A stretch of 64,000 nt of DNA from Psychromonas sp. MME1. Lineage in GTDB: Bacteria; Pseudomonadota; Gammaproteobacteria; Enterobacterales; Psychromonadaceae. A program made the position numbers and the translations under genes. Location of the stretch: positions 1,736,001 through 1,800,000 of the forward strand of contig NZ_CP160906.1 of assembly GCF_041080865.1 (NCBI RefSeq), read 5' to 3'. Shown piece after piece: positions 41,327 to 61,751 of this stretch; position 1 is the stretch's first letter; each line of letters begins with the position of its first letter. The notes under the pieces were generated by a model. The model was not told where the DNA came from. It searched no databases and saw only the letters and a program-made list of their open reading frames with translations.

Positions 41327-41338
41327 GTAAGCGCTTGC
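41327..41338. promoter_or_regulatory. LacI-type operator 1 (before the MalM-like gene)
   Basis: GTAAGCGCTTGC, 64 bp before the ATG at 41402. Member of the GNAARCGCTTNC set. A weaker half-site (GGCGCTTATCC) follows at about 41352. Confidence 0.7.
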
Positions 41339-41401
41339 TTAAATAATACAAGGCGCTTATCCTGTAAAGGTATTAATATTAGCTTTAACCAAGGAATTAA
41401 A

Positions 41402-42421
41402 ATGAAAATAATATTAGCTATCGGTTTAATAATATTTGCCACAGGGTGCAGCAGTAATAACAGTATGCTTATCGATTACGGCGACAAGGATACACATAAA
41501 TTACAAAAGATAGATCCCGCGCTTGGTTATCAAGCACTCGAGCAAGCTTCCGTATGCTGTACCACATTAAGCGAACTGAATTACTTGCCAATTTCTCAAC
41601 CTGATGCATTTGACTTCGTTATTACAGAAAAAAGTGATGTATTTAATTTCACTACAGGTAAATCTTTCGTTCAAGGTGTCACTCTTCCGCTAGCGGATGG
41701 GTCAATAAAAGTAGCGGTATCGGCCCCCATAGTATCAAGTGTTTTTGTTCCAACAATCTTATTATTAGATGACCAATATGAACCTCTAAGACTATATGGA
41801 GAAGAAACTATTACCTACCAAAGTGGTTCTTTACTAAACATTGATAGATTCTTCGCCAATATTGAAGTTCCAGCTGTATTTGATAATGATCGACATGCAA
41901 AATATTTAATTATACTAACGACACAAAAAGCAATGCAGGGCACAACGACGCTCACTCTACCGGAACCATCATCGGCAGAAATAGGCCGAGAAGCCCTGAT
42001 CATCAAAGAATATAACAACAAACCTCTTCCCCATACCGCAACCGGTGTTGTTAGACTTGCCTTTGATTACAAGCCCAACGGCGAAAATTCAGCGAAAAAT
42101 ATAATGGTAAAAGAGAGCAACACTGACAGTCAAAAAGCACAGGCTATAGTTGCTACAAAAGAGATGAGTAACATCAAACCCAAAGCCACAATTCAGCCAA
42201 CAAAACAATCAGCGACTAGCGAAGCTGCTACCGCTACAACGCCGCCCATTAATAAATCTATTCAACCAGAAAGTGAAGAAATGTATCTTCTTTTAATTGA
42301 AAAATCAGTAAAAAATGAAGACTACAAAAAAGCACTGCATTTTGTTGAAGAGGCAGAGCGAGCAGGCTCAACGAAAGCGCGTGATGCAATGTTTGATGCG
42401 ATGAAAAAGTACCAAAAATAA
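41402..42421 (+). CDS. MalM-like lipoprotein of the glucan locus
   Basis: 339 residues. Lipobox IFATGC (11-16). The MalM signature is visible: YQALEQASVCCTTLSELNY then LPISQPDAFDFVI (40-72), followed by beta-rich VPTILLLDDQYEPLRLYGE. MalM sits in the periplasm in maltose operons and its precise role is unclear. Here it belongs to a beta-glucan locus. A Thr/Ser/Lys-rich linker (220-285) leads to a C-terminal TPR-like helix pair (LLLIEKSVKNEDYKKALHFV) that E. coli MalM lacks, as far as I recall. AAGGAATT ribosome site; operator 1 upstream. Confidence 0.78.
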   Translation: MKIILAIGLIIFATGCSSNNSMLIDYGDKDTHKLQKIDPALGYQALEQASVCCTTLSELNYLPISQPDAFDFVITEKSDVFNFTTGKSFVQGVTLPLADGSIKVAVSAPIVSSVFVPTILLLDDQYEPLRLYGEETITYQSGSLLNIDRFFANIEVPAVFDNDRHAKYLIILTTQKAMQGTTTLTLPEPSSAEIGREALIIKEYNNKPLPHTATGVVRLAFDYKPNGENSAKNIMVKESNTDSQKAQAIVATKEMSNIKPKATIQPTKQSATSEAATATTPPINKSIQPESEEMYLLLIEKSVKNEDYKKALHFVEEAERAGSTKARDAMFDAMKKYQK

Positions 42422-42438
42422 ACAAAATCATTTAACTG

Positions 42439-42480
42439 CCCCAACGAAGCAAAGATGTAAATAGGCGTTGGGGTGTTCTT
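42439..42480 (+). terminator. Terminator after the MalM-like gene
   Basis: CCCCAACG (42439-42446) pairs with CGTTGGGG (42466-42473), then TGTTCTTCTTTTTT. Good intrinsic form. Confidence 0.75.
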
Positions 42481-42520
42481 CTTTTTTCGTGATAAAGCTA
42501 CAATTTACAGAGCAAAAACA

Positions 42521-42549
42521 TTGCCCTTTACATTACCTAATTTAATATA
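42521..42549 (+). promoter_or_regulatory. Candidate promoter of the first GH16 gene
   Basis: TTGCCC (42521-42526), 17 bases, AATATA (42544-42549). The LacI-type operator begins 4 bp after the -10, so a bound repressor would cover the start point. Confidence 0.5.
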
Positions 42550-42552
42550 CAA

Positions 42553-42564
42553 GAAAGCGCTTAC
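42553..42564. promoter_or_regulatory. LacI-type operator 2 (before the first GH16 gene)
   Basis: GAAAGCGCTTAC, 21 bp before the ATG at 42585, immediately downstream of the candidate promoter. Confidence 0.78.
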
Positions 42565-42584
42565 AAAATATTAAAGGGGTTAAC

Positions 42585-43670
42585 ATGCAACTAATTTCCA
42601 CAACAAGGCAGTATTCATTGTCTCAGCTACACACTTATCGCACTCTATTCGCAGGAGCATCTTTGTTATGTCTGAGCGCGCCAACCATGGCGGGATGGGA
42701 GGTACAATGGATAGATACGTTTGATGGAAGCGGTGTAAACTGGGATAACTGGACTGCACAAACAGAAGCAAATTATAATAATGAAGCGCAATGTTATACC
42801 GATGATGATAGCTCACCTGAGAAAAATTATGATGTTTCTAATGGCACATTAAAAATTATTGCCCGTAAAAAAAATATAAACTGTCCAGGCTTAAATGGCA
42901 CATTTAAGACATGGACTTCAGGCCGTTTAAATAGTAAAGGTAAAAATGAATTTCTCTATGGAAGAGTTGAATCACGGATCCGTTACCACAATTTAGAAGG
43001 CGGAACTTGGCCTGCTTTTTGGATGTTAGAAAATAGAATTAACCAACAACCAATTCAAAATGACAATGATTTTAGCTATTGGCCACAGCCGGGTGCGGGT
43101 GAAATTGATGTATGGGAATGGTTTTCCAATCGCCCAGACAGTTATATCACTAACTTCTTTAATACAGGTGCAGATTGCGGTAGAGAAGAGTTATACTTCT
43201 ACCCAAATGGTGCACTAGATGTACTAGATTGGCATAACTATGCCATGGAGTGGTCAAAGGATGAAATCTCTTTTTACGTAGATGATACGCTAGTAGCATC
43301 ACAGGATCTGCGTAACTGCAGTCAATATGAAGAACCGATGTTTGTACTGCTCAATGTTGCAATGGGGGGCATGTTAGGCGGTACTATTGACCCTGATTTA
43401 CAAAAAGCCACACTAGAAGTGGACTATGTAGCACACTGCACCGCTACAACTAAAAATGAGGTCATTTACTGTAATGAAGATGCTGTAATAACCGACCCTG
43501 AAATAACCGACCCTGAGATAACCGACCCTGAGATAACCGACCCTGAGATAACAGAGCCAGGAATAAATGAACCGGTTAATAGCAGTGGTGGTGGCAGCAT
43601 TGGCGTATTCGCCCTACTCTCTTTAACCATACTTGGTCTATTTAGACGCAGAGAAAAATCTATTCATTAA
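42585..43670 (+). CDS. GH16 beta-glucanase with GlyGly-CTERM sorting tail
   Basis: 361 residues. A signal peptide ends near APTMAG (about 36). The GH16 domain (38-285) has the catalytic GEIDVWEW: nucleophile Glu173, Asp175, acid/base Glu178. Substrate-side motifs GTWPAFWML and FVLLNVAMGG are typical of laminarinase-type GH16. Next comes a linker of EITDP repeats (about 303-322), then SSGGGSIGVFALLSLTILGL with a basic RRREK end: a GlyGly-CTERM signal, which rhombosortase cleaves for surface display or release. So it acts outside the cell on beta-1,3(-1,4)-glucan. AAAGGGG ribosome site, operator 2 just upstream. Confidence 0.92.
   Translation: MQLISTTRQYSLSQLHTYRTLFAGASLLCLSAPTMAGWEVQWIDTFDGSGVNWDNWTAQTEANYNNEAQCYTDDDSSPEKNYDVSNGTLKIIARKKNINCPGLNGTFKTWTSGRLNSKGKNEFLYGRVESRIRYHNLEGGTWPAFWMLENRINQQPIQNDNDFSYWPQPGAGEIDVWEWFSNRPDSYITNFFNTGADCGREELYFYPNGALDVLDWHNYAMEWSKDEISFYVDDTLVASQDLRNCSQYEEPMFVLLNVAMGGMLGGTIDPDLQKATLEVDYVAHCTATTKNEVIYCNEDAVITDPEITDPEITDPEITDPEITEPGINEPVNSSGGGSIGVFALLSLTILGLFRRREKSIH
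43491..43550 (+). repeat. Four 15-bp tandem repeats in the GH16 linker
   Basis: ACCGACCCTGARATA repeated four times almost without change, encoding T-D-P-E-I units. Near-perfect identity at DNA level means copy number may vary between strains and so change linker length. Confidence 0.85.
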
Positions 43671-43764
43671 ACCTATCCCCATGTTACTTTGTCAGGCGCG
43701 AGAGCGCATACCAGAGTATGAGGTAGCATGAGGTGAATGTTATTCACTTTTTGCATCTTAAAAT

Positions 43765-43876: not shown

Positions 43877-45511
43877 TTACTTTTCATTAATTAAAAGTAC
43901 CTCTCTATTATCGCCGATGATATAAAGGTTACCATCACCTACAATAGTAAAAAATTTCTTTTCCTCACCGCTACTAATCGGCATTGCTAACGAGTAGCTA
44001 TTAATACTTAATTCACTTTGTTGTGCAGCGAAAGTTAATTCACCGTAACGACTGCTTCGTCTGTTATCGCTAGTTAATGCATTTACCTCATATAGTACCG
44101 TTAATGGCGCTGTAACCTCGCCGCTACGCGTGATAACAATCTTTCCTGCTTGTTTATGAACATTAACCTCAATCAATTCAGGAAGCATACCTTTAGCGAC
44201 TTTGACGCGAACCGGGTTAATGCCAAGCATGTGAACATTGTCACCATCATTCATAGAAAAAGCAGCGATATAAAAGCTACCATTATTATCCCACGAATCA
44301 TAACCGGTAATAAAATCTTTTGCAGCGGCCTGCCTATCAAGTTCTTTAATATTGGCTAATTCAAAAGAATCGCCAGTGGCAATATCATACTCATAAATCG
44401 CATTACGGCTAGCACCCGTATCGCTGCGACCAAGATAAATTTTACGTTCGTCAGGCGATAACTGAAGTATCCATGTTTTTGCTGTACGGCTATAATCGGG
44501 GCGACCTAAAAACTCCCAGCTCGCACTAGCATCGGTGAATCGGTAAATATTACCTTGGTCATCGCTGACATAAAGCCGCTCATGTTTGCGGTCCCATTGC
44601 CCTATTTCAATGGCATTTGCTGCTTTAAGTGAAAATTCGGGTAACTCACCAAAACCAACGGCAGGATCATAATACCAAATATGGTCGAAGGTGGTTGACA
44701 ACTCTTTTTGATGCCATTGGTGTCGTGTGGATCCCCCTGAAATATAGACCCGGCCACGGGAATCAACCCACATATAGCGATTAGAATAGAAATAACCTTG
44801 CCATTGTGAAGGCCGCCCTAAAACAGTGGTGACACCATTTTTTATATCATATTTCACCAGGTTGTTTTGCGGAACAGAGATGCCGTAAATAAGGTTATTT
44901 TCAGGGTCCTTTTGAATGGTCACAATCTGCAGATGTTTTGCCGCAACACCATTGGGCTCTGTTGCACTTAAATCAATTAACTCATTGGTCAACTTATCAT
45001 AGCCATACCAATGAAATCCTCGCGTTGCCAAGTAGCTGTCATTCATGCCCGATTTATCAAGCGTTGCTACGTAAATGCGGCCATCGTGTGCGATAGGTCG
45101 CGTATGAAATTTTTCTGCAGATTCGCCGACATGCCAGTTATTAGCCTTTTCCGATGCACTTCGTGCATCACCAACCCAGCGCAAGGTAGCGTCACTTTGC
45201 TGCAACCGATATAACATGGAATTATTGATATGATCGTGACCCGAAATGTAAATATCCCCCTCAGAGTCTGAGCCAATCGCTAACCAAGATTGATCAGGAC
45301 GTTCACCCGTTGGCGCATTGACAAGAGACCAAACAGTGACACCGTCAATTTTACCTAATCTAGCCCTGCTATAGGGCACAGTTATAACCTCTGCAAGTGC
45401 CGGTTGGTGTACAGGTTTAGTTTCCGATGTGCTAACACAAGCCATTAATAGGCATGACAAGCAAAGTAGAAGGGAAAATCTTATCCCTATATAATGTAAA
45501 TATTCCTTCAT
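43877..45511 (-). CDS. Beta-propeller-like lipoprotein
   Basis: 544 residues from the ATG at 45511, chosen because GAGAG lies five bases upstream and a lipoprotein signal follows directly (FSLLLCLSCLLMAC, lipobox LMAC). The mature part has repeated strand patterns (SEGDIYISGHDH, HDGRIYVATLD, SRGRVYISGGST, DQGNIYRFTD, DERKIYLGRSD, GDGNLYIIGDN) of a six- or seven-bladed propeller like SMP-30/NHL proteins. No catalytic motif is evident. It lies inside the glucan locus but has no LacI-type palindrome before it, so it may be a passenger or under different control. Possibly a binding or lactonase-like protein. Confidence 0.65.
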   Translation of the reverse strand: MKEYLHYIGIRFSLLLCLSCLLMACVSTSETKPVHQPALAEVITVPYSRARLGKIDGVTVWSLVNAPTGERPDQSWLAIGSDSEGDIYISGHDHINNSMLYRLQQSDATLRWVGDARSASEKANNWHVGESAEKFHTRPIAHDGRIYVATLDKSGMNDSYLATRGFHWYGYDKLTNELIDLSATEPNGVAAKHLQIVTIQKDPENNLIYGISVPQNNLVKYDIKNGVTTVLGRPSQWQGYFYSNRYMWVDSRGRVYISGGSTRHQWHQKELSTTFDHIWYYDPAVGFGELPEFSLKAANAIEIGQWDRKHERLYVSDDQGNIYRFTDASASWEFLGRPDYSRTAKTWILQLSPDERKIYLGRSDTGASRNAIYEYDIATGDSFELANIKELDRQAAAKDFITGYDSWDNNGSFYIAAFSMNDGDNVHMLGINPVRVKVAKGMLPELIEVNVHKQAGKIVITRSGEVTAPLTVLYEVNALTSDNRRSSRYGELTFAAQQSELSINSYSLAMPISSGEEKKFFTIVGDGNLYIIGDNREVLLINEK

Positions 45512-45939
45512 AAAACTCTCATATTGATAATGTTTAGCAGCATTTAAAGATGAAAAAGTATAATGGATAGCAATTAACATCACCTGTGGGGTATTTATCA
45601 TCATTTGTAATAGTATCAGACCTGAATCAGCCTAGGTTTATACTCATATTCACTATACACCGTATTCAGTGGCGGCATCACATAAGCTTATTTTCTACTT
45701 ATCAAGCAAGACAACGGAACAGGGAATTAACACAACACCGTATCAACAAATACGACTATGAAAACGACAGCAAAGGTTATTAATAGCCCTAAACAATAGA
45801 TAGGATGAATCTAGCATATTAGATTTAATTGCTATCGATACATATCTGTTGAAGAAAATAAATAGTGACAGTTATACCTAATTTCCGACATTCCACCATA
45901 AAAATGAATCACTGAAATAAAAGTATTTTCGTAAAGTAA
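45512..45939. other. Intergenic, propeller lipoprotein to GH17 terminator
   Basis: AT-rich. I find neither an AARCGCTT palindrome nor a gene with a ribosome site here, so control of the propeller lipoprotein remains unexplained. Confidence 0.45.
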
Positions 45940-46046: not shown

Positions 46047-47918
46047 TCACTCCAACCAAGAGATATTTCTTACTTCAATCGAACTTTTAGTAACGGGACT
46101 ACCTTGCTGATCAAAAACGATGAATGTTTGCTTAACTTTACTAAGTTGAGAAGCATTATAACTCGTTAAATCTGCTAAGTTAACCGTGTATTTAACAAAC
46201 TCTTCGGTTAGCATCTTGCCAGCAGTATTCATTCGAACATTAACATTTGTACCCCACTCACCAAAATCTGTTTGGTAACCAACAGAAAATTGATATGTTG
46301 GGAATACGCTCTCTGCACTTGCTACACCTCTAATTTCAAAAGTGAGCTTAGTGTAATTACTCATATCTTCAGTCTTGCCAGCAACATCGATAGCAGCTCC
46401 CCAACCCCAATCTTTAGCGGTAGCTGGATCCGTAGCAATGGTTAATACCGCGGTATCGTCATTAACACCAGCCCAGGCAGTTTGTTCCCATCCATTAGCT
46501 GCAGCACCACTATATAGAGCGTCACCTAACACCACGAACTCGCCTTCAGTAGGTTCACCAGTGACAGGTTTGAGAGGTATTTGTAGGATTGAATCTAAAA
46601 TAGCTTGTTCATTACCGCCCTCAGTTTTAGTAAAGCCTTCAACACCACAATCTCGTGTTAATCCATCAAATGCACCTGCATCAACGAGATCCCAAAGCAC
46701 ATACTTCACTTCACAGTCAATGTTGATTAAACCAAAGTGTTTTTCTGAATCACCCGGGTTAGTTGCATCCCCTTTCCATGGCTCATCAATGGCTTGAAAG
46801 AAGAATAAAGAAGCACCAAACTCATTGGACCATGCACGCATTGCATCGTAATACGCCTTTTCTTTGTATTCATCAGCAGCACCTGAACCAGCTTCCCCGT
46901 AGAGATAATTAGCTGTAGATGCCCAACCCGTTTCGCCAAGATGAATAGGCTTATTAATATCTAAGCTTAACATGTAGTCTTGACCCGCTTTAAACTGTTC
47001 TAAAGCGAGATCTTTTGCACGAATCATCGCCGCATCAGCTTGTTCTTGTACCGTTAAGTTAGCCTCATCATTAGGCACTTTCCAAAAGTCTGGCGCATAG
47101 TGCGTATCGTGAAAAGGATAAGTATGTAATGATATGTAGTCTACCGCAGCCACCAAAGCCGCTAAATCATCACTTTCATAATCACCTACACCAGACCACG
47201 AAGCATGGTTATCTGAGCTAGTGATCCAAATTGATGAATCAATATCGCCCGATGCTTTTAACGCTTGTAACGCATTGACATGACCAAGAATGATTGCAGG
47301 TGCAACATGATAAGGAGCCCAGTGCACCATAGCCTCATTACCAACCGCAATCACTTTAATGATTTCAGGATATGTTTTAGCAAGTTCCACAGCCTTAGCC
47401 ATTTCTAATGCATTCGCAGGATTCTCTTCAGTATGTATTACTTCTAGGTCTGTCCATGAATTTAGTGCATCAATCCACACCCCTAACATCACATACATTT
47501 CAAAATTGGGATCTTCTGCCATTAATTCATCAATAGCGATCAAGAGGTTTTCTGTATTACTCTTACCATCATCACCAATATAGCCTTGCGTATTGTAAGT
47601 ACGTAATACTTTAATACCCATTGCAGCTAGGATTTTCATATCCTCTTTTTGTTGCGCAACGGTCGGAACAATTGCGCCAGATTCACGAGTATCAGTTCTC
47701 CAAGCACCATATGAGATAGCAGGATAGTTTGGATTACCAAGAATTTGCTCACCTGAATTAGATAAAGGTGCTGCATCATCAGATACTTTCGCTTGTGGCT
47801 GAAGGCCTGTCTCAGGGACTGGTGCTGGATCCGTTTCCGATACAGGGTCATCTGCACAGGCAATTATAAATAACGACATAAGCGCTATTAGACCCATTTT
47901 AAAACTTATATTCTTCAT
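46047..47918 (-). CDS. GH17 family beta-1,3-glucanase lipoprotein with C-terminal binding domain
   Basis: 623 residues. Lipobox FIIAC (17-21) with AspAsp after Cys-Ala. The catalytic barrel (65-430) has the GH17 pair: acid/base Glu195 in VIAVGNEAMV and nucleophile Glu329 in IHLGETGWAS; LRTYNTQGY and VDYISLHTYPF also fit. It cleaves or remodels beta-1,3-glucan such as laminarin. The C-terminal module (470-623, FVVLGDALYSGAAANGWEQ ... YTKLTFEIRG ... SIEVRNISWLE) is a beta-sandwich of the kind also present in the 48320-51224 lipoprotein. AAGGAAA ribosome site. Two operators upstream. Confidence 0.88.
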   Translation of the reverse strand: MKNISFKMGLIALMSLFIIACADDPVSETDPAPVPETGLQPQAKVSDDAAPLSNSGEQILGNPNYPAISYGAWRTDTRESGAIVPTVAQQKEDMKILAAMGIKVLRTYNTQGYIGDDGKSNTENLLIAIDELMAEDPNFEMYVMLGVWIDALNSWTDLEVIHTEENPANALEMAKAVELAKTYPEIIKVIAVGNEAMVHWAPYHVAPAIILGHVNALQALKASGDIDSSIWITSSDNHASWSGVGDYESDDLAALVAAVDYISLHTYPFHDTHYAPDFWKVPNDEANLTVQEQADAAMIRAKDLALEQFKAGQDYMLSLDINKPIHLGETGWASTANYLYGEAGSGAADEYKEKAYYDAMRAWSNEFGASLFFFQAIDEPWKGDATNPGDSEKHFGLINIDCEVKYVLWDLVDAGAFDGLTRDCGVEGFTKTEGGNEQAILDSILQIPLKPVTGEPTEGEFVVLGDALYSGAAANGWEQTAWAGVNDDTAVLTIATDPATAKDWGWGAAIDVAGKTEDMSNYTKLTFEIRGVASAESVFPTYQFSVGYQTDFGEWGTNVNVRMNTAGKMLTEEFVKYTVNLADLTSYNASQLSKVKQTFIVFDQQGSPVTKSSIEVRNISWLE

Positions 47919-48040: not shown

Positions 48041-48052
48041 GAAAGCGCTTTC
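48041..48052. promoter_or_regulatory. LacI-type operator 3 (before GH17)
   Basis: GAAAGCGCTTTC, a perfect 12-bp palindrome and one of the two best sites, 123 bp upstream of the GH17 ATG. Confidence 0.8.
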
Positions 48053-48061: not shown

Positions 48062-48073
48062 GTAAGCGCTTCC
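48062..48073. promoter_or_regulatory. LacI-type operator 4 (before GH17)
   Basis: GTAAGCGCTTCC, centre 21 bp from operator 3, two helical turns, so two dimers could bind side by side on one face. Confidence 0.75.
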
Positions 48074-48319: not shown

Positions 48320-51224
48320 CTAATAGAAGTAAATGTTGTCTAAGTAGACCGTATCTTTTGTTGAACCATGAATAGCTAAACCTAATTGTGATAAGGTAGA
48401 CGCATCAAATGTTCCTGCAAAATCTGCAAATACTAAGTCAATAGTTACCCACTGCCCCGTTGTAACTGAATTCAGAGTAGTAACACCACTACCGCCTCCT
48501 GATACAACCTGAAATTCAGTTTTTGTGACACCAGCAGTGGCATAAAAATCAAAACGCATCCCCGTTTTATCGGAAGCATCGACTACTCCACCAACAATCC
48601 CGTACTGGATCCCAGTAACACCACCCGCAACACCATCAGGAAGTACTTGGAAACTCGCAGTATTATTCCCTGAGATTTTAACTTCAGAGAAGCGAGGCGC
48701 ATTCCACCAGTTATCAGACCAGTATGAGATTCCTTTATCTACCGATAAACTATCGCTATATAATGTTAATGCCGCTGCATTGTCTATGGTAGGGTTCGGA
48801 GCTGCAACAGCGGGAGCAGGATAGCGAGGCTCCATCGAGATATCCAACACACCACCACCAACATTAGATTTTACAGTTTTAGCTATTGCCATACCTTCCA
48901 CATCCACAAATATCTTATGATCACCTTCTGGAATATTTAATGTTGCTATGCCATTTGCATTCGTAGTCGCTTTCGTACTTGCCTCAGCTAAGCTACCAAC
49001 AGATACAACTGCATTTGGAATGACTGCGCTATTACTATCTTTCACTGTTACCGCCAAATCTGAAAATACAGATTGACCTGAGAAATAGATATTATCAACG
49101 TAGATTGCTTTACCTGCCTCACCCCATAATTGCAAGCCAATAAATTTAAGCGTACTAGCATCTAAATCACCAGCAGCTCCCGTCATCTCAGAAAATAGCG
49201 TTTCATGAGAGATCCACTGCCCAGTGATAGGATTATCCAGTTCATAAAATGTATTGCCCGCATCTGAAGATAATTGAACCGAGATTTTACTAACGCCCGG
49301 TTCAACATACATATCAAAATTAAATGTATTGTGCGCAGAGGCATCAACTACACCATATTCAATACCAAACTCTAACCCGACTACACCACCGGTAGTACCT
49401 AAGTCCGTTATCTCATATTTTGCGTATTTATCACCATCAACATTCCCTTCTGAATAAATAGGTGCATTCCACCAATTTGAATTCCATACTGACACAAATT
49501 TGTCTTGTTTTAACGAATCACTATACAAGACCAATGCCTCTGAATCACTTAGTTGCGGTGGAATAGGTGCGGCAGTATCTGGACCAACAACTACAATCTC
49601 CTGCGTGACAAATTCTACATCAGCAAGTAAAACAGAACCTGGCTCAGCACCATTGAATGTCAAACCAAACCAAGTCATGTCGGTATAACCTGGCAATGCA
49701 GCTTCCATTTCAACCCAACCATCGGCTAATGGTTTACCTTTACTGATTAGATAACCTATTTTCGATTCTACATCAGCGCTATTCTGAACGATGACTTCAA
49801 TGGCATCCAAAGTTGTTGCTTTAACTTTGAATTTAACATGGGTATAGGCTGAAATATCAACTGCATTAGCAGCCTCATTACCCCAAAGGATAATCGCCAT
49901 ATTGCCCCAATTTGTGCCACTATTTAGCTTCAGAACTTTACTGTAAGTTGGATCTTGAACTGCATCGCTGATCGTGGTACCTGAATTTGATGTATCACCC
50001 CAGTATTGCATATAAACAGAATCAGCATGGTCTGAATGGAAGATATACAGTGGACCATCAATAATTACAGGTGGCGGCGCATCTTTTGTAACAAAGGTAA
50101 TATCCGTCAGCAAAGCCGATCCTGGCTGAATACCATTAATATTTAAGGCGAACCAATTCATATCAACATAACCAGGTAAAGTTGCTTCCATTTCAACCCA
50201 GCCACCAGCTAGTGACTTGCCACTACTAATAGCATAACTTTTCTTAGACTCTTCACCTCGTGAATTTTGTACTACAACTTCAACAGACGTCAAATTAGTC
50301 GCTTTAACCTTAAACTTAACATGTGTGTAAGCGGATGTATCAATCACGTTTTGTGCTTCATTACCCCACGCAATGACAGCGTTATTGCCGCCCCAGCCAT
50401 TACCACTAGTAATGTTTAAAACTTTCTCATAACTATTGTCTTGCACTTGATCATTAATGATGGAATTAGAATCCCAAGTATCCCCCCAATATTGCATATA
50501 AACATTTTGTTCATTAGTGGAATGAAATAAATAGAGATCACCTTCAGGTATTTGAATACCAGGGCCACTACCATCTAAGTCACCAACAAAAGCGACATTA
50601 GCAACCTGATAAACAGCACCATTACCACTTCCCCATGCAGGAAATACCATGACTTTACTGATAGCAGAAAGATCAATATCATTCGCTAAATCTGACAGCA
50701 AAATACTGACTTCACGCCATTCTCCCACCGTTGGAGACCCACCAGGCAGATCAAGTTCGATAGCTGTGCCATCATCACTTTCAATTTTCACTTTCCAGGC
50801 AACAGCACTAACAGATCTAGTAAGCGCTTTCACACCAGGTAAAGCATCATTAACTAGCTTAAAATCAAAAGTTAATGATCCCGTATCCGCAACAGCACTA
50901 ACATCAACAGGTGTCGCACTTTGAAAACCAGCTACAGAGGGTTCTGAACCGATGGTAAACTGGGTTACTTGCCCTTTAACAGGATCCGTTGGTGTGGTTG
51001 TATCAACACCGCCAAATGTTTCAAAAGTACCATCAATATCAACCACCACAACAGGGCCTTCAACTGGAGGGGGCGTCACAGGTGGCGGGGTCACTGGCGG
51101 TGGCGTTACAACAGGAATATCTGAAGAATCAGAAGCAGGATCATCCGCACAGCCTGGCAAGTGCTAATATTAAAGCACTTGCTAAAGCAGCATTAGCTAA
51201 TTTAAAACCATTTATTTTTTTCAT
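48320..51224 (-). CDS. Very large multi-module glycan-binding-like lipoprotein (frameshift in signal peptide)
   Basis: About 967 residues. The signal MKKINGFKLANAALASALIL lies in one frame from the ATG at 51224. At about 51160 one surplus base shifts it, after which PGCADDPASDSS continues; removing the base gives a proper lipobox LALAGC. After a PPPVT repeat linker come an N-terminal beta domain (about 45-200), two copies of a roughly 155-residue module (YMQYWGDT ... AYTHVKFKVKAT ... GWVEME) and two copies of a roughly 150-residue module (LYSDSL ... NWWNAP ... VDASxxTxxxFDxY ... YVDNIYF) around a short Ig-like unit. No catalytic residues are evident. Likely captures beta-glucan at the surface. 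An operator lies upstream. Confidence 0.72.
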
Positions 51225-51393: not shown

Positions 51394-51405
51394 GAAAGCG
51401 CTTCC
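51394..51405. promoter_or_regulatory. LacI-type operator 5 (before the 967-residue lipoprotein)
   Basis: GAAAGCGCTTCC, 170 bp upstream of the ATG at 51224. Confidence 0.75.
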
Positions 51406-51624: not shown

Positions 51625-54600
51625 CTATTTAGCGACAATAGCGACGTTATCTATATAGACATCCATTGCACAACCAGCTACAGCACCACATACAGGCCCC
51701 ATTAACAGATTGAATCCCCAATCAGCCTTAGCGCCAGCGGTGAAGTCCATTGTGTATGTCTGCCACGTAGGAGTTGGAGTAATATTATCCATCACCGCTG
51801 TAGCAGAAACACCCGTGGGGTCAAAGGTTTGCACATTACCATTGAAGACAGCACCATCAGCTGATGAACCTTTAAGCGCGAAGCTAAGGGTATATTGTTG
51901 CCCAGGAATGACCTCTCCAATCGCAAATTTTTGCTTAACTAATCTTGACTCACCGCCTTCTATTGAAATAAAGGCTGCACCATCAACGATGGTTGCATTA
52001 CTCTCCCACCCTGTAAGCCCACTTGCAAAATCACCATTTGGTACTAAATTACCTGCAACAGGTTCACCTGGGGTACCTGGATCAACAGGTGCAATTGGCT
52101 CACCACCAGCAGCGGCAATTAAGATGTTGTCAAGTTCAACATTCATGGCACAACCAGCAACCGCACCACATACAGGGCCCAATAAAATATTTAGTCCCCA
52201 GTCAGCTTTTGGCCCAACAGTAAATGGCATTGTAATCGTTTGCCAAGTATCCGTAGGTACAACGTTATCGAGCACGGCGGTTGCAGTAACTCCTGTTGGG
52301 TCAAATGTTTGTACGTTACCATTAAAGACAGCGCCATTTTCAGCTGTTCCTTTTATATCAAAACTCAGTACTAAATCTTGCCCTGGTGTAACGGCTCCAA
52401 TAGCTATTTTTTGTTGTGATATTCTTGATTCACCACCATTAATTGCAATAGAGGCAACACCATTAGTGACGGTATAATTACCCTCCCATGAGGCTTTACC
52501 TAATGAAAAATCACCATTAGGAATTAAATTAGTTACACCACCACCTTCAACAACATTAACTGTTCTGGTCATTTGAGCGGCTGCATTACCATCACTATCT
52601 GTCACATCGTAAGTCACAATGTAAGTACCTGCAGTCGTTTCATCAACTGGATTATTGATAATGACATTGGCAGTCACATCGCCATCAAGGTTATCTTGCG
52701 CTGTAACTCCCGCGTCAACATAAGAGTCACCCACAGAGATAACAACATTCGCATCACCTAAAAGAGTAATGACCGGTGCAATATCCGCATCAGTGATCTC
52801 AGTAATTGCAATATTGTCAAAGGTAACAGTTGTTGATACTCCAGCACCTAAAGCAAAGATCAGATCGCCAGAATTAGCAGCATTAGCACTCGCAGTAAAT
52901 ACAATTTCATGAGTACCCATTGTGGTTGTTAAAGGGACAATGGTATCGTCAGTGAATGTATTAAACCAAGGAGCGCCTGAAAGTAACTCGCCGAGTTGCA
53001 CAGTGATACTTCTCGCTTCTGCAACGCGAGCATCAAACGATAATTTATATTGTGTACCTGGTACTAAGACTAAATCTCCCTGAACTAAACGTGGTTGATA
53101 TGCTGCACCTGGTGCAATGCCTTCAACGACTAATTCGCCATCAACAATCGTAATTGTACCAGCACCTTCCTGTAAAACCCACTCAGTAGGCACTATTGCG
53201 TTATCAAAACCACCATTTTTAACAATAACATTGCTAGGATCGATCACATTGACTTGACGCTGGATTTCTGTGGCATTATTACCCGCCGCATCTACCACGT
53301 TATATGTCACAGTGTAAACACCGACAATCGATGTATCAACATTAGAGTCATCAACAATAATATTCGCAGTAATATCCCCATCGACGTTATCTGATGCCGT
53401 TGCGCCTGGTTCAACATAGCTATCATTTAAATTAACAGTAACTGAAGATGCACCCACTAAAGTAATGATCGGAGCAACTAAATCGTCCGAACTAACAATT
53501 ACCGTTCTGGTAACTTCTGTTGCAGCATTACCAGCCGCATCCGTCACATTATAAGTAACGACGTAAGTCCCATCAACAGCGGAATTCACACTATCCCCAC
53601 CGACTACAACAACTAAACCAGTATCCACATTATCAGTGATAGTGACGCCTGGATCGACATAAACAGCACCATTATCGATGTTAACAGTTGATTCACCAAG
53701 CAATGTGATTACTGGTGCTTCTGTATCCTCAGCATCGTATTCAGTGATAGAAATATTATCAAGTGTCACATCGGTTGCTAAACCAGCACCAAGTGAGAAT
53801 ATAAGGTCAGCATTCAAAGAAAGCGGATTATCAATTGTCACAACTAGCTCAAATGTTTGCATTGCTGTCGTTAAGTCAACTGGAATATCTTCAACAAAAT
53901 TATCGAAATATGGGTCAGCGTCTAGTAACTTACCTAACTGAATTAACATGCCTCGAGCTTGTTCAGCTTTAGCATCAAATTTGATTTTATAAGTTGCTCC
54001 ATCAGCAGAACCGAATCGGTTTGTTGCACTAAACGACCTTCCCATGGGTTACCACCAGGAGAAAGATCAACAATAACCAATTCACCATTAATGATGGTTG
54101 GGATCCCGCCTCCTAATTCAAAGTACCATTCATCACCGAGTGCAGTAGCAAAATCACCATTGGTAATAATTGCGCTATTTGCTTCTACTACATTAACTTG
54201 ACGAGTCACGTCTGCTGCTACATTACCCGCCGCATCCATTACATTATATGTGACGGTATAAGCACCAATAGTAGAAGAATCTACCGCAGTAGCATCAACA
54301 ACGATGTCGCTGGTAATATTTCCGTCCACATTATCAGATGCAGTAGCGCCTAAATCAATGTAGGTATCATTCAAATTTATAGTTACCGAAGCTGCGCCCA
54401 CTAAGGTGATCACTGGAGCTTCAGTATCGACACCAGTAGCATCTTTTACAACAACGGTTCTTGTGACAGCCTGAGCAACATTACCAGCCGTATCTGTAGC
54501 ATTGAATGTCAATGTATATGTACCAGTCACGGCCGTATCTACGGTACCAGTTTGGCTAGCAGTTAAGTTTTTATCGACATTATCGGTGACCGTAACCCCT

Positions 54601-54797
54601 GCATCTACATAGTTAGAATTTTTTATTACATCAACAGAAGCTGCACCAAGTAATTGTATTACAGGAGCTTCAGTGTCTACACTAGGACTAGGTGTTGATG
54701 TGTTTTTGTTGCTTTCATCACCACAACCAGCCATGGCTAATGATAGAGCCGCAATTAATGCACCATTCGCCAAATTAAAACCCGCAATTGTTTTCAT
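51625..54797 (-). CDS. Very large lipoprotein of DUF5011 and CBM4/9-like repeats (one frameshift)
   Basis: About 1057 residues. It begins with lipoprotein signal FNLANGALIAALSLAMAGC. Five Ig-like DUF5011 units follow the pattern PVITLxGxAxV ... Y-x-D-x-GATA-DNVDG ... TYxVTYNVxDAAGN. Four CBM4/9-like units start with NGDF or NGGF (ITNGDFATALG, VKNGGFDNAIV, IPNGDFSLGKASW, VPNGDFASGLTGW). No catalytic domain. The first frame ends near 53943; the second is already open from about 54045. Joining them (…LVQQTDSV + DGATYKIKFDA…) needs one missing base near 54010-54025. The homologous unit RLVQGDLVLVPGTQYKLSF supports the join. Probably a surface glucan-binding or adhesive protein. AAGGATAA ribosome site. 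Confidence 0.72.
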
Positions 54798-54869: not shown

Positions 54870-54881
54870 TAAAGCGCTTTC
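54870..54881. promoter_or_regulatory. LacI-type operator 6
   Basis: TAAAGCGCTTTC, 73 bp upstream of the DUF5011/CBM lipoprotein start (54797, minus strand). Confidence 0.75.
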
Positions 54882-55024: not shown

Positions 55025-55036
55025 GAAAACGCTTAC
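55025..55036. promoter_or_regulatory. LacI-type operator 7
   Basis: GAAAACGCTTAC, inside the 741-bp divergent region between the DUF5011/CBM gene and the second GH16 gene. It could be an auxiliary site for looping with operators 6 or 8. Confidence 0.65.
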
Positions 55037-55496: not shown

Positions 55497-55508
55497 GAAA
55501 GCGCTTAC
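55497..55508. promoter_or_regulatory. LacI-type operator 8 (before the second GH16 gene)
   Basis: GAAAGCGCTTAC, 31 bp before the ATG at 55539. Same sequence and similar spacing as operator 2. I see nothing else gene-like in 54798-55538. Confidence 0.78.
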
Positions 55509-55538: not shown

Positions 55539-57137
55539 ATGAAACAACCCGCCTACTCAAAATTGTCAGCTGTCGCATTAGCGGTTACTTTAGCTGGCTG
55601 TGCATCCTCTGATAATAAGGCTAACACTGAAGATAATGTGTTAGAAAAGACATCAACGCCAAAGGCTCTCGTACTCACAGCGGCTCCGCTAAAACCAAGC
55701 GAAAAGTGGGATTTACTCTGGAGCGATGAATTTGATGGTGATGAAATTGATAAAAAGAAATGGGAATTCGTCGCTGATTGTTGGGGTGGTGGTAACAATG
55801 AACAACAATGCTATACGACACGTAAAAGTAATGCCTTCATTGAAGATGGCAAATTAAATATTGTCGCCAAAAAAGGCAGTTTTACAGGCCCTGATAATGC
55901 TGATGGTAACCCAGGCACCCGAACACTCCCTTATACCTCTGCAAAATTACGCTCAGTAGGTAAAGGCAACTGGAAATATGGTCGTTTTGAAGTACGTGCA
56001 AAATTACCATACGGTCAAGGTACTTGGCCTGCATTTTGGATGTTGCCAACCGATTGGGTCTACGGCGGCTGGGCAGCATCAGGTGAAATAGATATTATGG
56101 AAGCAGTAAACCTAAAAACGGCTTCTACTGAAACAGGCGCTGCCGATGGCGAGTTAGAATCACGTGTATTTGGTAGCCTCCACTACGGCAAGCCTTGGCC
56201 TGATAATGTTTTTACAGGTCAAGCAACACATCTACCTGGCAATGTAAACCCAGCCGATGATTTCCATACTTATGCCATCGAATGGGAAGAAGGTGAAATT
56301 CGCTGGTATTTGGATAATGTTCACTTTGCAACGCAAAGAGCTGATGGTTGGTATAGCCAGCATATGGAAGATGGTGTTTATGTGAGTGGCGGCAAAAATG
56401 CGCCCTTCGATCAAAAATTCCATATGTTGTTAAATCTTGCTGTTGGTGGCAATTGGGCAGCTAACGCTAATGACGGTGGAATTGATTCATCAGTATTCCC
56501 ACAAACATTAGCCATTGACTATGTGCGCGTCTATCGCTGTTCAGCGGATCGCTGGAAAGGTAAAGGTTGTGCAGCGGTATCAGAAGAGGCCAAATTAGTT
56601 GAAGGAACACCTGAACCTGAAATTCTAATCGGTGACGGCAATTTTGGTAAAGGACCTGTTTTTAATGTTTACAATGATGCTTTAGCGGTTGGTGCTGCAT
56701 TTGACGGTTATGATCCGAAAAAGGTGGTCACACAGGAAGAAGTTGATGAAGAAGGTCGCGGTAAAGTTTGGAAAATAACCAAAACTGGCGATGTCGGTAA
56801 TGTTTATCTTCGAGCACCACAAACTGATATGAGCCACTGGATGGACGGCGGTGAACTTGTCTTTGACCTTAATATCGTCAGTAAAGAGGGCAACCCGGAT
56901 CTATTAATAAAAATGGATAGCGGCTGGCCTAATGCAAGTGATATTGCCATCGAACAGCCTGCAGTCGGAACATGGAGTGAAGTCCGTATTAATGTAGCAG
57001 ATTTGATTTCACGTGGTAACCGCTTTGCGGGTGGTAAAGCTGATATATCAAGAATCCGTAACATTTTAGTAATTGAACCATTAGGTCCAATGACCATGAA
57101 AGTTGATAACATTCGTTTTGAATATGCATCTAAATAA
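55539..57137 (+). CDS. GH16 beta-glucanase (laminarinase-type) lipoprotein with C-terminal domain
   Basis: 532 residues. Lipobox TLAGC (about 18-22), Ala at +2, so outer membrane. The GH16 domain (55-345) contains WDLLWSDEFDGDEID, GTWPAFWMLP, catalytic GEIDIMEAV (nucleophile Glu183, acid/base Glu188), AIEWEEGEIRWYLD and MLLNLAVGGNW: a laminarinase-like endo-beta-1,3-glucanase. A C-terminal beta domain (370-532, FNVYNDALAVGAAFDGYD ... GPMTMKVDNIRFEY) resembles a binding module. It differs from the first GH16, which has a sorting tail instead of a lipid anchor, so one enzyme stays bound and the other can be processed. Operator 8 upstream. Confidence 0.93.
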   Translation: MKQPAYSKLSAVALAVTLAGCASSDNKANTEDNVLEKTSTPKALVLTAAPLKPSEKWDLLWSDEFDGDEIDKKKWEFVADCWGGGNNEQQCYTTRKSNAFIEDGKLNIVAKKGSFTGPDNADGNPGTRTLPYTSAKLRSVGKGNWKYGRFEVRAKLPYGQGTWPAFWMLPTDWVYGGWAASGEIDIMEAVNLKTASTETGAADGELESRVFGSLHYGKPWPDNVFTGQATHLPGNVNPADDFHTYAIEWEEGEIRWYLDNVHFATQRADGWYSQHMEDGVYVSGGKNAPFDQKFHMLLNLAVGGNWAANANDGGIDSSVFPQTLAIDYVRVYRCSADRWKGKGCAAVSEEAKLVEGTPEPEILIGDGNFGKGPVFNVYNDALAVGAAFDGYDPKKVVTQEEVDEEGRGKVWKITKTGDVGNVYLRAPQTDMSHWMDGGELVFDLNIVSKEGNPDLLIKMDSGWPNASDIAIEQPAVGTWSEVRINVADLISRGNRFAGGKADISRIRNILVIEPLGPMTMKVDNIRFEYASK

Positions 57138-57168
57138 AAGCTTATCTTAGAAAATTTAGAATAATCAC

Positions 57169-57672: not shown

Positions 57673-59694
57673 TTATACTTTAAAACGATGCACCAATTCA
57701 TTTTGTTGATGAGCTAACTCATCTAATTGACCAGTCACCTGTGTGACTTTTTCCATTGAAGAATTGTTATCATCCGCTATCTGGCTAATGTTTTCTAGGC
57801 TCCGAGCGATCGAATTCGTTGTTGAGCTTTGCTCATCAGCAGCACTAGCAATATGATAGCTCATTTTACTTATTTCAATAATATTTGCCTGAATTTCTTC
57901 CATTGCACTATTAGCATTGGATGTTTGCATTAAGGTTTTATTCATTTCGCTGACACAACCTTGCATTACTGTAGAGGCTTGCCCCGATTTTGACTGGAGG
58001 TTATTAATCATATCTTCAATTTCAGCCGTTGATTTTGTCGTCCTTTCAGCTAAAACTCGCACTTCATCGGCCACAACAGCAAAACCTCTTCCTAGCTCAC
58101 CAGCGCGAGCCGCTTCAATGGCGGCATTAAGCGCAAGTAAATTGGTCTGTGCGGCTATATGACGAATAACATCCAAAATAGAGCCTATGTTACTACTCAT
58201 ATCTTGCACCGTTAAAACAACTGTAACCGATTCATTCAATTTATCCGATAATTGATGAATGGTAGAAATGTTATCACTCATGATATCGCGCCCAGTTTGC
58301 GCAGAGACTTCAACATCACGAACCTTATCCATAGAGCTCTGTGCGCTAGATGCAACATCTTTAACGGAATGCTCCATCTCTGTCATTGCTGTTGCCACCG
58401 AGGCTGTTTGATTACGCTGTTCATTCAAACGCGCCCTAGAGACCTCCATGACTGATTTATTTTGAGCAGATACTTCGGCTAAATCGCCGGCTGTTGCACT
58501 TAATTTACGCAATATATTTTGCAGATTAGATGCAAGTGTATTTATATGGTCACTAAGTTGGTTAAATTCAATAAATGTATTGCTATTCACTCTAACGGTC
58601 ATATCCCCTGCCGTTAATGCTTCAAGTGCGTTAAGAATAGAAATGAGTGGTTTACGCACATTCTGAGAAAGTAACCACGCAAGAAAAAGTAAGAATACCG
58701 TAACGCCACCTCCAATTAAAAGCGCCTGAGCATAACCATCCAAATAGATTTCATTCGCAGTTTCAATCGAATTGGTAAGTAATCGCTCACCCTCACCTCG
58801 AAACTGAGCAAGAATAGTCATTGCTTGATCAATTTCAGCAGCTAGGACAGATATGTTCGCATATAAAAGAACCCGGGCATTAACGAACATGAAATGCTGA
58901 TCAAGCACCCCTCCTTTACTACCTACATCTTCGATGAACTGCATCGTCGATGCCTCAAACTCCTCCTTGAAACCAGGTAATTGAGTGGCAATACTCTGAT
59001 AAGCAAACTTCAATCGTGTCACACTTCGCTTGTTGGTTTTTATTGCTTGGCTAATTTTATTGATATCATCACTGGAAAGTGCATCGGAAGTGATTGTTTC
59101 AATTGACTTTAATTTATCAAAATATCCTTTTGCTAAGATTTTAACAATATCAGTGCCTTTTTCATTAATATATTCAATCATCCCTAAACGTAAATCAGTT
59201 TGTAGCTTTTGAAAGCGACGTGCTGTTATCTGCCGTTCTTGTTGCGCAGATAATTGCATTTTGTAATTATTCATCGCGATATTTGATTCAGTAAAGTAAC
59301 GCTCCTCTAGAGCCTGTAATTCACTTAATTGTCCATTTAATTTGGGATTTTCGGCGCTCAATGAGGCCAATTTGGTCAGCGTATTACTAAAGTCCTGATG
59401 TGCTAAGCTAAATTTTTCTTCGTAACTTTGCATTCGTAGCGCATCTTGGCTGGTTAAAAAATCTTTAAATGTTTTATCAGCAATCAGTAACTTGACGCTA
59501 CTTTGATTGGCTAACGTCACAAGCGGCAAAACATCCATACTCACGGATTCAAGCTCATTATAAATACGACTTGTACCGTTCAACATTAACATCACAGTCG
59601 CAATAAATAGTGCTACCATCACGGAAAATCCGGCGTACATCCTTTTAATTACGGAAGTTTGTCTATTTATTTTTAGCATATTTTTAAATTCCAT
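57673..59694 (-). CDS. Methyl-accepting chemotaxis protein under the glucan regulon
   Basis: 673 residues from the ATG at 59694, preceded at a distance by GAGAGG. First membrane helix [20 protein letters not shown] (about 19-38), a long helical periplasmic sensor (40-320), second membrane helix [19 protein letters not shown] (about 325-343), HAMP (about 345-400) and a signalling domain whose hairpin tip [20 protein letters not shown] is near-canonical (about 510). It senses a ligand and feeds CheA/CheW. A LacI-type palindrome 24 bp before the start ties it to glucan use, so it may sense laminari-oligosaccharides or a binding protein. That ligand is inference. Confidence 0.9.
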
Positions 59695-59717
59695 TCTGAA
59701 AACAACCTCTCTCACAA

Positions 59718-59729
59718 GTAAACGCTTAC
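59718..59729. promoter_or_regulatory. LacI-type operator 9 (before the chemoreceptor)
   Basis: GTAAACGCTTAC, 24 bp upstream of the MCP start. The centre has AACGCTT instead of AAGCGCTT, like operator 7. Confidence 0.7.
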
Positions 59730-60021
59730 TCTTTTTATTTATTAACTAGCAGTACATTTAGGGAATAATTGGTAGGATATATTACGGGGCACTATTATTT
59801 TATTTTTCAAAATCAGCCATTTCACAGCACCTAGAAAATTAAAAAATCGAGCTGTTTTCATCGATAGCAGCAATAACTACTGCCCAGATAAATGTAAGTT
59901 TACAGTCGCATCCTTGATATTATTTTTGTAGGCTAGTCAATTTATCTAATGATTTCAAAGCAACTGGGCAATCTATTGCCGAAAGCGTAGCGCTACAAAT
60001 GCTGCAATATTAATAAAATAA

Positions 60022-60052
60022 AAAGGGCCATTACAATCGCGTATGGCCCTTT
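60022..60052 (-). terminator. Terminator after the porin gene
   Basis: AAAGGGCCAT and ATGGCCCTTT, ten perfect pairs, 23 bp past the porin stop on the minus strand. Confidence 0.8.
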
Positions 60053-60075
60053 AAAGTGACAAAACTACTTATCGT

Positions 60076-61359
60076 TTACCACCACATGTCAGCTTGTAAA
60101 CCAAGTATAAAGTCACTATCACCATTATTAGTTCCTGCATGGTCTAAATATGTACCTAGCAGTCTAATTTCAGGTGCAGGGCCTTGACCTGTTCCTATAA
60201 TCCACGTTGGGGCAAGGGTTGCTTTCGCGTTATTGCCCTTATAAGTTTCATTACCGTTTGAGTCTTCTGCATAGGCATGAGACACACCAAATTCAGTTGC
60301 GATAAAGAAGTTATCAAAAACAGGGAAAGTTGGACGGATCATTGCCGAAGTCCAGTAATTATAGCTGCTATCATCATTATCATTGTACTGAGCTTGTAAT
60401 GCAGGGAACAAGTTAATGCCGTTCTCTAGGAAGTAACCACCCCAAAGTAAAAAGCGCGCTGACTGATCCTTTTCGTCAATATAAGTCATTCTATCTGGAC
60501 CTGGACCACCAGCAACCCAACCGTTATAAACATTAAGCGTACCACCAAGTAATTGATGAGAGCCTAAACCACGACCGGCTTGCAAAATAACTTTAGAGAA
60601 GCCATTACCAGGTAAACCCACGAAACTATCTAGATGAACAATACCTGTTACATCAAAGCCCTTTTCTGCGTATTCATTCCCAGCCTCATCCCAGTTATCT
60701 GGCATGCCCTTTAACTGGCCATGTAACTCGAAACTGCCAAAATTTGCACCGACGTGAATAGAGTGCATTAAATTATTGGTATTATTACCCCAACGACCAT
60801 CTGGATTATTACGATCACTGGTCATGTATGCAAAATCATATTTAACATCACCAATTTCATAATCAGCCAGACCAATACCTAAGCCTGACATTTGTGTGTA
60901 GAAGAAATCCGTCATAAAGATATAATTGTCTTTACCGTAATCGCGTTTACCCGCCCAAAATGTTCCCGTTTCAGTCAAACCACCAAATTCAACATAGGTT
61001 TGTCCAAAACCCATACTATTAGACGTTGAATCAGCATCTACCGAAGAACCCAGTGCTTTATCATCCCCTGTACCAGCAACCGCAACATGAATACGGATAG
61101 ATTTACCATCATCAAAGGCCCATTTTTTTACTAATTCAAAGTTCATATCATTATCAGACTCAATACCTAAACGCCCTAACTGCTCTTTCGATGCGGGGAA
61201 TTTAGCGCGTTTATAATCATCCTTTGAACTAACTAAAACACCTGAACGAAAGTAACCGTGAAATTCTATACCATCTGTTGTAGCAGCATTAGATGTAGTC
61301 GTAACGGACAATGTTGATGTAGCAAGAAGACATGCGAGTGTTAATTTTGATAGTTTCAT
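60076..61359 (-). CDS. LamB-like maltoporin-family outer-membrane channel
   Basis: 427 residues from the ATG at 61359, chosen for GGAGT upstream and an immediate signal peptide (MKLSKLTLACLLATSTLSV, cut after SNA); the frame is open 39 codons further but crosses the operator. The mature start IEFHGYFRSGVLVSS is the LamB first strand; GRLGIESDNDMNFEL, YVEFGG, FWAGKRDYGKDNYIF and a final aromatic MWW agree. Probably lets glucan oligosaccharides cross the outer membrane. Three sites (operators 10 and 11, and a CRP-like site) lie between it and the divergent regulator gene. Confidence 0.9.
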   Translation of the reverse strand: MKLSKLTLACLLATSTLSVTTTSNAATTDGIEFHGYFRSGVLVSSKDDYKRAKFPASKEQLGRLGIESDNDMNFELVKKWAFDDGKSIRIHVAVAGTGDDKALGSSVDADSTSNSMGFGQTYVEFGGLTETGTFWAGKRDYGKDNYIFMTDFFYTQMSGLGIGLADYEIGDVKYDFAYMTSDRNNPDGRWGNNTNNLMHSIHVGANFGSFELHGQLKGMPDNWDEAGNEYAEKGFDVTGIVHLDSFVGLPGNGFSKVILQAGRGLGSHQLLGGTLNVYNGWVAGGPGPDRMTYIDEKDQSARFLLWGGYFLENGINLFPALQAQYNDNDDSSYNYWTSAMIRPTFPVFDNFFIATEFGVSHAYAEDSNGNETYKGNNAKATLAPTWIIGTGQGPAPEIRLLGTYLDHAGTNNGDSDFILGLQADMWW

Positions 61360-61419
61360 TGTAACTCCATAATGTATTTGTATTTCCGTGTATTGATCAA
61401 GATAACAACAAAGCGCACT

Positions 61420-61431
61420 GAAAGCGCTTTC
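61420..61431. promoter_or_regulatory. LacI-type operator 10 (before the porin)
   Basis: GAAAGCGCTTTC, perfect palindrome identical to operator 3, 61 bp upstream of the porin ATG. Confidence 0.8.
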
Positions 61432-61559
61432 TTTGATTGTTAAAAAAAAAGCCAAATATGATAAGGTAACAGTCAATAGAGCAGTTAAAATCCATTAGCT
61501 AACTTCAGATGCAAGTATAAAGAAAAAAAAGCAGATAAAAAGTGAGCCACATCACCAAT

Positions 61560-61571
61560 GTAAGCGCTTTC
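61560..61571. promoter_or_regulatory. LacI-type operator 11 (porin-regulator region)
   Basis: GTAAGCGCTTTC, 140 bp from operator 10 and 180 bp from operator 12; a good distance for looping between the porin and regulator promoters. Confidence 0.75.
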
Positions 61572-61572
61572 A

Positions 61573-61588
61573 TGTGATTATGATCTCA
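61573..61588. promoter_or_regulatory. Candidate CRP (cAMP receptor protein) site
   Basis: TGTGA-TTATGA-TCTCA, one mismatch from the TGTGA-N6-TCACA consensus, next to operator 11. Suggests catabolite control of the porin as in maltose systems. Single weak match. Confidence 0.4.
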
Positions 61589-61739
61589 CTCTATTAATTA
61601 CGCAGTGAACTAATATTTACAACAACAATAAAGGTAGCGCATTTCTTAAAGCTTAAACTTACCTGTTAAACGATCACCTTAATAAAAAAATATATGTGCA
61701 GTCAACACCATAAATGTGTTTTCTTTACCATAATTCAAC

Positions 61740-61751
61740 GAAAGCGCTTGC
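61740..61751. promoter_or_regulatory. LacI-type operator 12 (before the regulator itself)
   Basis: GAAAGCGCTTGC, 66 bp before the TTG start of the LacI-family gene. Implies autoregulation. Confidence 0.75.

Follow-up and report, generated by a model that had tools for sequence, protein, structure and literature searches.

Genes and Predicted Operators of the Locus

The window analyzed here is a stretch of 64,000 nucleotides (positions 1736001-1800000) of the genome of Psychromonas sp. MME1, a single contig of 3,590,786 bases. A short palindrome, GNAARCGCTTNC, recurs in it among genes predicted to serve the use of laminarin (β-1,3-glucan). This palindrome very probably represents the operator of a LacI-family protein encoded at 61788-62816, which would repress the laminarin genes until it is released by a glucan fragment. 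A pattern scan found GNAARCGCTTNC at 12 places in the window, all within 41,327-61,751; because 10 of the 12 sites match on both strands, there were 22 strand-wise matches. Dinucleotide-preserving shuffles of the window gave a mean of 0.11 matches and a maximum of two. A preliminary description of this DNA had reported 12 copies between 41.3 and 61.8 kb and no equal site in the first 41 kb; each copy was found at its position, and 41,327 was the first exact match. When one mismatch to GNAARCGYTTNC was allowed, the first 41 kb gave six scattered matches and the locus two extra ones, at 54870 and, within a lipoprotein gene, at 52232. Scans for promoter-like sites showed no excess (59 versus 63 on average in shuffles) and were disregarded.

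The first predicted operator, GTAAGCGCTTGC (41327..41338), lies 63 bp upstream of a plus-strand gene for a MalM-family lipoprotein (41402..42421; PF07148, 2.2e-24). The following glycoside hydrolase family 16 (GH16) gene, GH16a (42585..43670, plus strand; PF00722, 1.5e-21), has the predicted operator GAAAGCGCTTAC (42553..42564) 20 bp upstream of its ATG and, as judged by eye, immediately 5′ of its likely ribosome-binding site. The GH17 enzyme is encoded on the minus strand (46047..47918) and was recognized by its similarity to a solved GH17 structure (6fcg, 1e-126); the Pfam GH17 profile matched it with an E value of 0.0025, under the cut-off. Upstream of this gene, GAAAGCGCTTTC (48041..48052) and GTAAGCGCTTCC (48062..48073) form a pair of predicted operators with a spacing of 21 bp, which agrees with the peak at 22 bp described for paired LacI-family sites (PMC4052901).

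Two genes for large lipoproteins follow on the minus strand. One (48320..51224) encodes a protein of about 950 amino acids and has a shift of reading frame close to the signal peptide; the predicted operator GAAAGCGCTTCC (51394..51405) is located 169 bp upstream of its ATG at 51224. The other encodes an Ig-like/CBM_4_9 lipoprotein (51625..54797) and consists of two overlapping open reading frames (ORFs) split by a frameshift; GAAAACGCTTAC (55025..55036) lies 227 bp and the near-operator TAAAGCGCTTTC, with one mismatch (54870..54881), 72 bp upstream of this gene. The frameshifts, one at the signal peptide and the other mid-gene, thus break both genes and reflect either decay or assembly error. 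A second copy of GAAAGCGCTTAC (55497..55508) is found 30 bp upstream of the ATG of GH16b (55539..57137, plus strand; PF00722, 9.7e-19), whose C-terminal part weakly matches a galactose-binding-like domain (Exop_C, 0.0093, below the cut-off). The chemoreceptor gene (57673..59715, minus strand; PF00015, 3.1e-42) has the operator-like sequence GTAAACGCTTAC (59718..59729) adjoining its start.

The gene for the LamB-family porin (60076..61359, minus strand; PF02264, 2.7e-69) and that for the LacI-family regulator (61788..62816, plus strand) are divergent. The regulator gene was assigned a GTG start, and a TTG at 61818 is also possible. Three predicted operators occupy the region between the two genes: a second GAAAGCGCTTTC (61420..61431), 60 bp upstream of the porin ATG, a copy of GTAAGCGCTTTC (61560..61571) in the middle, and GAAAGCGCTTGC (61740..61751), 36 bp upstream of the regulator GTG. 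The site at 61420 lies inside a mechanically listed ORF, yet it is intergenic when the porin starts at ATG 61359, the likely start, which fits the ORFs of the orthologs. With this start, 11 of the 12 sites are intergenic, as had been stated for all of them. The remaining one, the other copy of GTAAGCGCTTTC (50820..50831), lies within the coding sequence of the ~950-aa lipoprotein, about 390-400 bp downstream of ATG 51224. LacI-family sites in coding regions make up less than 1% and include the lac site deep in lacZ (PMC4052901), and an intragenic site is also reported for GlyR3 (PMC5483248); the site at 50820 may accordingly be an auxiliary operator or a product of chance.

The gene identities proposed earlier, namely the MalM-like protein, two GH16 enzymes, the GH17 enzyme, the Ig/CBM lipoprotein, the chemoreceptor, the LamB porin and the LacI protein, were confirmed. 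Beyond the regulator gene, the minus strand carries a gene for a small protein (63181..63606), cupin-like by eye and free of Pfam matches, which lies downstream of the 3′ part of a gene for a GH149 β-1,3-oligoglucan phosphorylase (63615..64000) that extends beyond the window as far as about 67,070. At the other end, directly upstream of the first operator, 38848-41250 encodes an 800-aa protein that by eye resembles a protein combining TPR and CHAT (caspase-like) parts.

Sites Beyond the Window

In the whole genome, the strict form GNAAGCGCTTNC, an even palindrome with a central CG, occurs 22 times, with 10 matches in the window, two in the 9 kb that follow it and 10 in the rest of the genome, compared to none for the reversed control. 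Hence 12 of the 22 strict sites fall within a single locus of about 31-32 kb. The looser form GNAARCGYTTNC was found at 33 places, and the 19 outside the locus did not exceed the 21 matches of its reversed control; it was therefore dropped as a genome-wide marker, and only the GCGC-centred form is informative at this scale. The motif is thus not confined to the window.

Of the two sites just past the window, the one at 1803088 (window-equivalent 67088) precedes the GH149 phosphorylase gene and the one at 1808848 (72848) precedes the gene for a family-5 solute-binding protein and four ABC-importer genes, beyond which a GH1 gene is located. The regulon therefore crosses the window edge, and the boundaries first drawn for it were too narrow, also with respect to distant sites at pullulanase and secreted-protein genes in some species (see below). 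The phosphorylase aligned over nearly its full length (residues 8-1148, 1134.7 bits) with 6hq6, a solved bacterial β-1,3-oligosaccharide phosphorylase; the family name GH149 is taken from paper titles. A second GH149 copy, 74% identical and with an in-frame TGA, is present at 2125054-2128470, far from the locus.

Conservation of Sites and Regulator

Orthologs of the LacI protein with 64-87% identity were found at ten loci of named genomes (five Psychromonas, three Vibrio and two Enterovibrio), the best matches being Psychromonas proteins with 81-87% identity. At all ten loci, the motif is present beside the regulator gene and before genes for porin, GH16, solute-binding protein or GH149, and the one Photobacterium locus read has the same arrangement. 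Predicted operators upstream of the regulator's own gene and of neighbouring sugar genes are thus kept in relatives. The GH149 start carries a site in six of the eight loci that reach this gene, and the site type found at 55497 also occurs upstream of the GH16b ortholog in three loci (L044, L045 and L048). In six Psychromonas-type loci (the window and L044-L048), the two sites nearest to the porin gene are 138-142 bp apart; the next interval toward the regulator gene measures 169-180 bp in the four of these loci that have an exact third site.

The co-occurrence of motif and regulator was compared in 24 genomes of the genus, the own genome being labelled G000. An ortholog with at least 74% identity is encoded in seven of them (G000, G001, G002, G005, G006, G007 and G019), and GH149 (E ≤ 1e-60) in the same seven. 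All other LacI matches at E ≤ 1e-60 had at most 38% identity, apart from a second copy in G019, which is 58% identical, lies on another contig (L118:2216-3214) and is possibly a duplicated regulator; G019 also has the highest motif count (26). The strict motif occurred 22, 19, 13, 10, 14, 13 and 26 times in the genomes with the ortholog and one to nine times in the 17 without it, the reversed control giving zero to four matches across all 24 genomes. A one-sided rank test of the seven against the 17 counts gave p = 8e-5, a value that ignores relatedness.

The placement of the sites differed as well. In the seven ortholog-bearing genomes, 104 of 117 strict sites were outside all ORFs of at least 100 amino acids; nine of the remaining 13 lay within 150 nt of the earliest possible start of the ORF and four, including 50820, lay deeper. 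In ortholog-less genomes, only one of 32 sites was outside ORFs, three were within 150 nt of a start and 28 lay deeper; these 32 of 53 sites are all those of G003, G004, G008, G014, G015, G016 and G023. In G008, the ortholog-less genome with most sites, all nine strict sites were inside ORFs. Among the sites examined, the motif thus occupies operator-like positions only in genomes with the LacI ortholog.

The LacI Protein and Its Paralogs

The LacI protein has a LacI-type helix-turn-helix (PF00356, 62.9 bits) followed by a sugar-binding-like sensor part. The GalR, RbsR, PurR and CcpA profiles cover most of the protein, each with a score under its own cut-off (192.7 bits versus 442.35 for ccpA). 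The closest solved sequence is that of CcpA (1rzr, 1.1e-55), an entry for a DNA complex; CcpA uses HPr-Ser-P as co-repressor. A recognition helix of the form SQ[AS]TVSR and the hinge stretch FAQALAS are shared by all ten loci and Photobacterium; LacI proteins matching SQ[ASV]TVSR at their start were retained for this comparison, and those of the ten loci and Photobacterium all passed. The own genome contains six LacI-family genes, and the five paralogs differ from the regulator in both the recognition helix and the hinge stretch. One of them, which is GalR-like, is surrounded by sites of the type GTAAACGTTTAC with a different operator centre. Near another, trehalose-type LacI gene (L023:980-4483), ORFs resembling type I-F Cas proteins were seen by eye, followed by an ORF in which the unit VHCRTGSLE recurs and which is probably the translation of a CRISPR array.

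Proposed Mechanism and Alternatives

We propose that a LacI dimer binds each copy of the palindrome and, when bound, would repress the genes for laminarin use including its own, until a small glucan fragment derived from laminarin releases it. The binding itself, repression rather than activation and laminarin as the substrate are what we infer from sequence. The set of controlled genes would comprise those for the secreted GH16 and GH17 enzymes, the large lipoproteins, the MalM-like protein and the LamB-type porin, the chemoreceptor gene, probably via the LamB gene that it lies downstream of, and past the window end the ABC importer and the GH149 phosphorylase gene; a pullulanase and a secreted protein, both encoded far from the locus, would be added in some species. 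Autoregulation is suggested by the site 36 bp before the regulator's own GTG. As the best functional analogue, GlyR3, responds to laminaribiose (see below), laminaribiose or longer laminari-oligosaccharides are the most likely inducers.

The assignment of the motif to the neighbouring regulator, already made in the preliminary description, is supported by the loci of other species, by the co-occurrence in 24 genomes and by the placement of the sites. Since six LacI-family genes are present in the genome and palindromes with a central CG are usual for motifs of this family (PMC4052901), the sites could in principle be bound by one of the paralogs, with the neighbouring LacI gene being only a passenger. 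We regard this as very unlikely, as the motif count follows the presence of this particular ortholog across the 24 genomes, the sites flank its gene in 11 of 11 loci read, and the DNA-binding helices of the paralogs differ, the GalR-like one being paired with GTAAACGTTTAC. That the regulator activates its targets, or acts in both ways depending on site position, is a somewhat less remote but still improbable alternative. Some sites are located 169-227 bp upstream of the genes, and two targets of GlyR3 in Clostridium thermocellum respond to laminaribiose with expression changes in opposite directions (PMC5483248). Distances of 20, 30, 36, 60 and 63 bp between sites and start codons, one of the sites being just 5′ of a likely ribosome-binding site, suit steric repression, and blocking of transcription therefore fits better than activation. 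As for the motif being a repeat of a general kind or arising by chance from the base composition, the looser pattern is indeed no more frequent outside the locus than its reversed control (19 versus 21). This reading is contradicted by the strict count of 22 versus 0 in the own genome and by the finding that, in regulator-bearing genomes, 104 of 117 sites do not fall within ORFs, and we give it practically no credence.

Several observations weigh against the operator function proposed for the palindrome, or against parts of the target list. One of the 12 sites, 50820, is intragenic. The gene for a 575-aa protein within the locus (43877-45604), for which no Pfam family was found at E ≤ 0.001, has no upstream site, and in two Vibrio loci GH149 lacks a site of its own and is located downstream of the importer genes. 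The chemoreceptor site has no counterpart in relatives: in all five relatives' loci with DNA upstream of the receptor gene (L044, L045, L046, L048 and L164), no site precedes it. There it lies on the same strand as LamB and downstream of it, directly or after one gene, and may share the LamB promoter. Furthermore, common descent links the 24 genomes, so that the rank test overstates their independence, and five of the seven ortholog-bearing genomes (G001, G002, G006, G007 and G019) are those of the Psychromonas loci compared, which makes the comparison of loci and that of motif counts overlapping rather than independent. The placement analysis of ortholog-less genomes covers seven of the 17 genomes, with 32 of the 53 sites, and the distant targets vary between species.

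Distant Candidate Targets

Among the strict sites outside the locus, those upstream of a large secreted pullulanase with PUD, CBM48 and pullulanase domains were found in three species at similar positions (-245 to -256 and -360 to -435). This gene is preceded by one exact and two near sites in G000, whereas G019 has three exact sites and G001 has two. For pullulanases at least 65% identical, exact sites within 500 bp upstream were present in three of four LacI-positive genomes and in none of four LacI-negative ones, albeit in small numbers; eight more distant copies (45-55% identity) had no exact site. Exact sites also precede the gene for a secreted protein that belongs to no Pfam family; they are present in G000, G001 and G019 and at one of the two copies in G006, and the relative in G004, the only LacI-negative genome with one, has none. 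A MalM-like gene of G001 carries an exact site at its 5′ end. In the own genome, a lamB-malM pair has two exact sites, one of which overlaps the first codons (MKALT) and may have arisen by chance from the coding sequence; a search of the genus for this maltoporin (E ≤ 1e-60) found it in the own genome only. A protein of about 240 amino acids, by eye a sugar-isomerase-type TIM-barrel-like protein, is also preceded by the motif (G001, L082:3070-3167; G019, L117:2998-3009) and is a possible further member of the regulon. No comparative support was found for the remote sites before or near genes encoding a choice-of-anchor protein, a PilZ-like protein, a solute-binding protein and a pair of peptide transporter and small protein, or for one within a membrane-fusion-type ORF (L036).

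Control of α-glucan genes by the LacI protein is plausible. One protein might even link the use of laminarin and α-glucans, the two main storage glucans of algae, by controlling the pullulanase and perhaps the own-genome lamB-malM pair, an idea to which we give somewhat less than an even chance; if it is true, laminarin fragments would pre-induce the attack on starch or glycogen. It is likewise a real possibility, though short of probable, that a different regulator, of the maltodextrin type, acts on the sites at the pullulanase and secreted-protein genes. The own genome encodes MalT (813 bits) and has a GntR-like LacI gene that is separated from a MalM-like gene by about 700 bp (L022), Shewanella has the maltodextrin regulator malR (PMC2996990), and the LacI-positive G007 lacks the site at a pullulanase with at least 65% identity. 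On the other hand, the distant sites carry the identical strict motif, no strict sites occur near the GntR-like gene, and the exact pullulanase sites follow the LacI ortholog in the small comparison above.

Implications and Comparison with Known Regulators

Laminarin is one of the major storage glucans of algae, and the best-described loci for its breakdown are those of Bacteroidota. For the laminarin system of a marine gammaproteobacterium, the analysis provides a sequence-defined operator, a candidate regulator and a list of targets, which can be transferred to Vibrio and other relatives. It also points to probable pathway genes that lack annotation, namely those for the two large lipoproteins, the MalM-like protein and the secreted protein that has no Pfam family. 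In addition, a link between β-glucan sensing and α-glucan use is suggested. Among the open-access papers listed by literature searches, the titles and abstract beginnings contained no description of this regulator in Psychromonas or Vibrio; an earlier prediction in RegPrecise is possible.

With respect to DNA recognition, the protein resembles CcpA. The optimum CcpA cre site, TGAAAGCGCTTTCA (PMC5483248), contains the motif, so that the operator core is identical, and the recognition helices are nearly so (VSQATVSRVLNG versus VSMATVSRVVNG in the printed alignment with 1rzr). CcpA, however, acts globally in Firmicutes (PMC4052901) as a carbon catabolite regulator, whereas more than half of the strict sites described here are clustered in one gammaproteobacterial β-glucan locus. 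In function, the LacI protein would be closer to GlyR3 of the celC-glyR3-licA cluster, an autoregulated LacI-family protein of a β-glucanase operon that dissociates from its celC site in response to laminaribiose and has a cre-like operator as well as a second, weaker site in a coding region (PMC5483248), comparable to that at 50820. The two are likened by function, and GlyR3 has few sites in one Firmicute cluster, compared to 12 strict sites over about 31 kb plus others elsewhere. The LacI-type BglR of Shewanella was predicted by comparative genomics to control a pathway with the secreted β-1,3-glucanase LamA and an outer-membrane transporter (PMC2996990); that pathway has a GPH-family permease and glucosidases in place of the ABC importer, LamB-type porin and GH149 phosphorylase of Psychromonas. 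In the more distant Thermotoga maritima, BglR and the LacI-type CelR control laminarinase or β-glucan genes together with ABC transporters (PMC3750489), BglR being a ROK-family protein and in this respect unlike the regulator proposed here. The locus thus appears to represent a well-supported LacI-family β-1,3-glucan regulon with a cre-like operator, a new example of a type of system that is already known.

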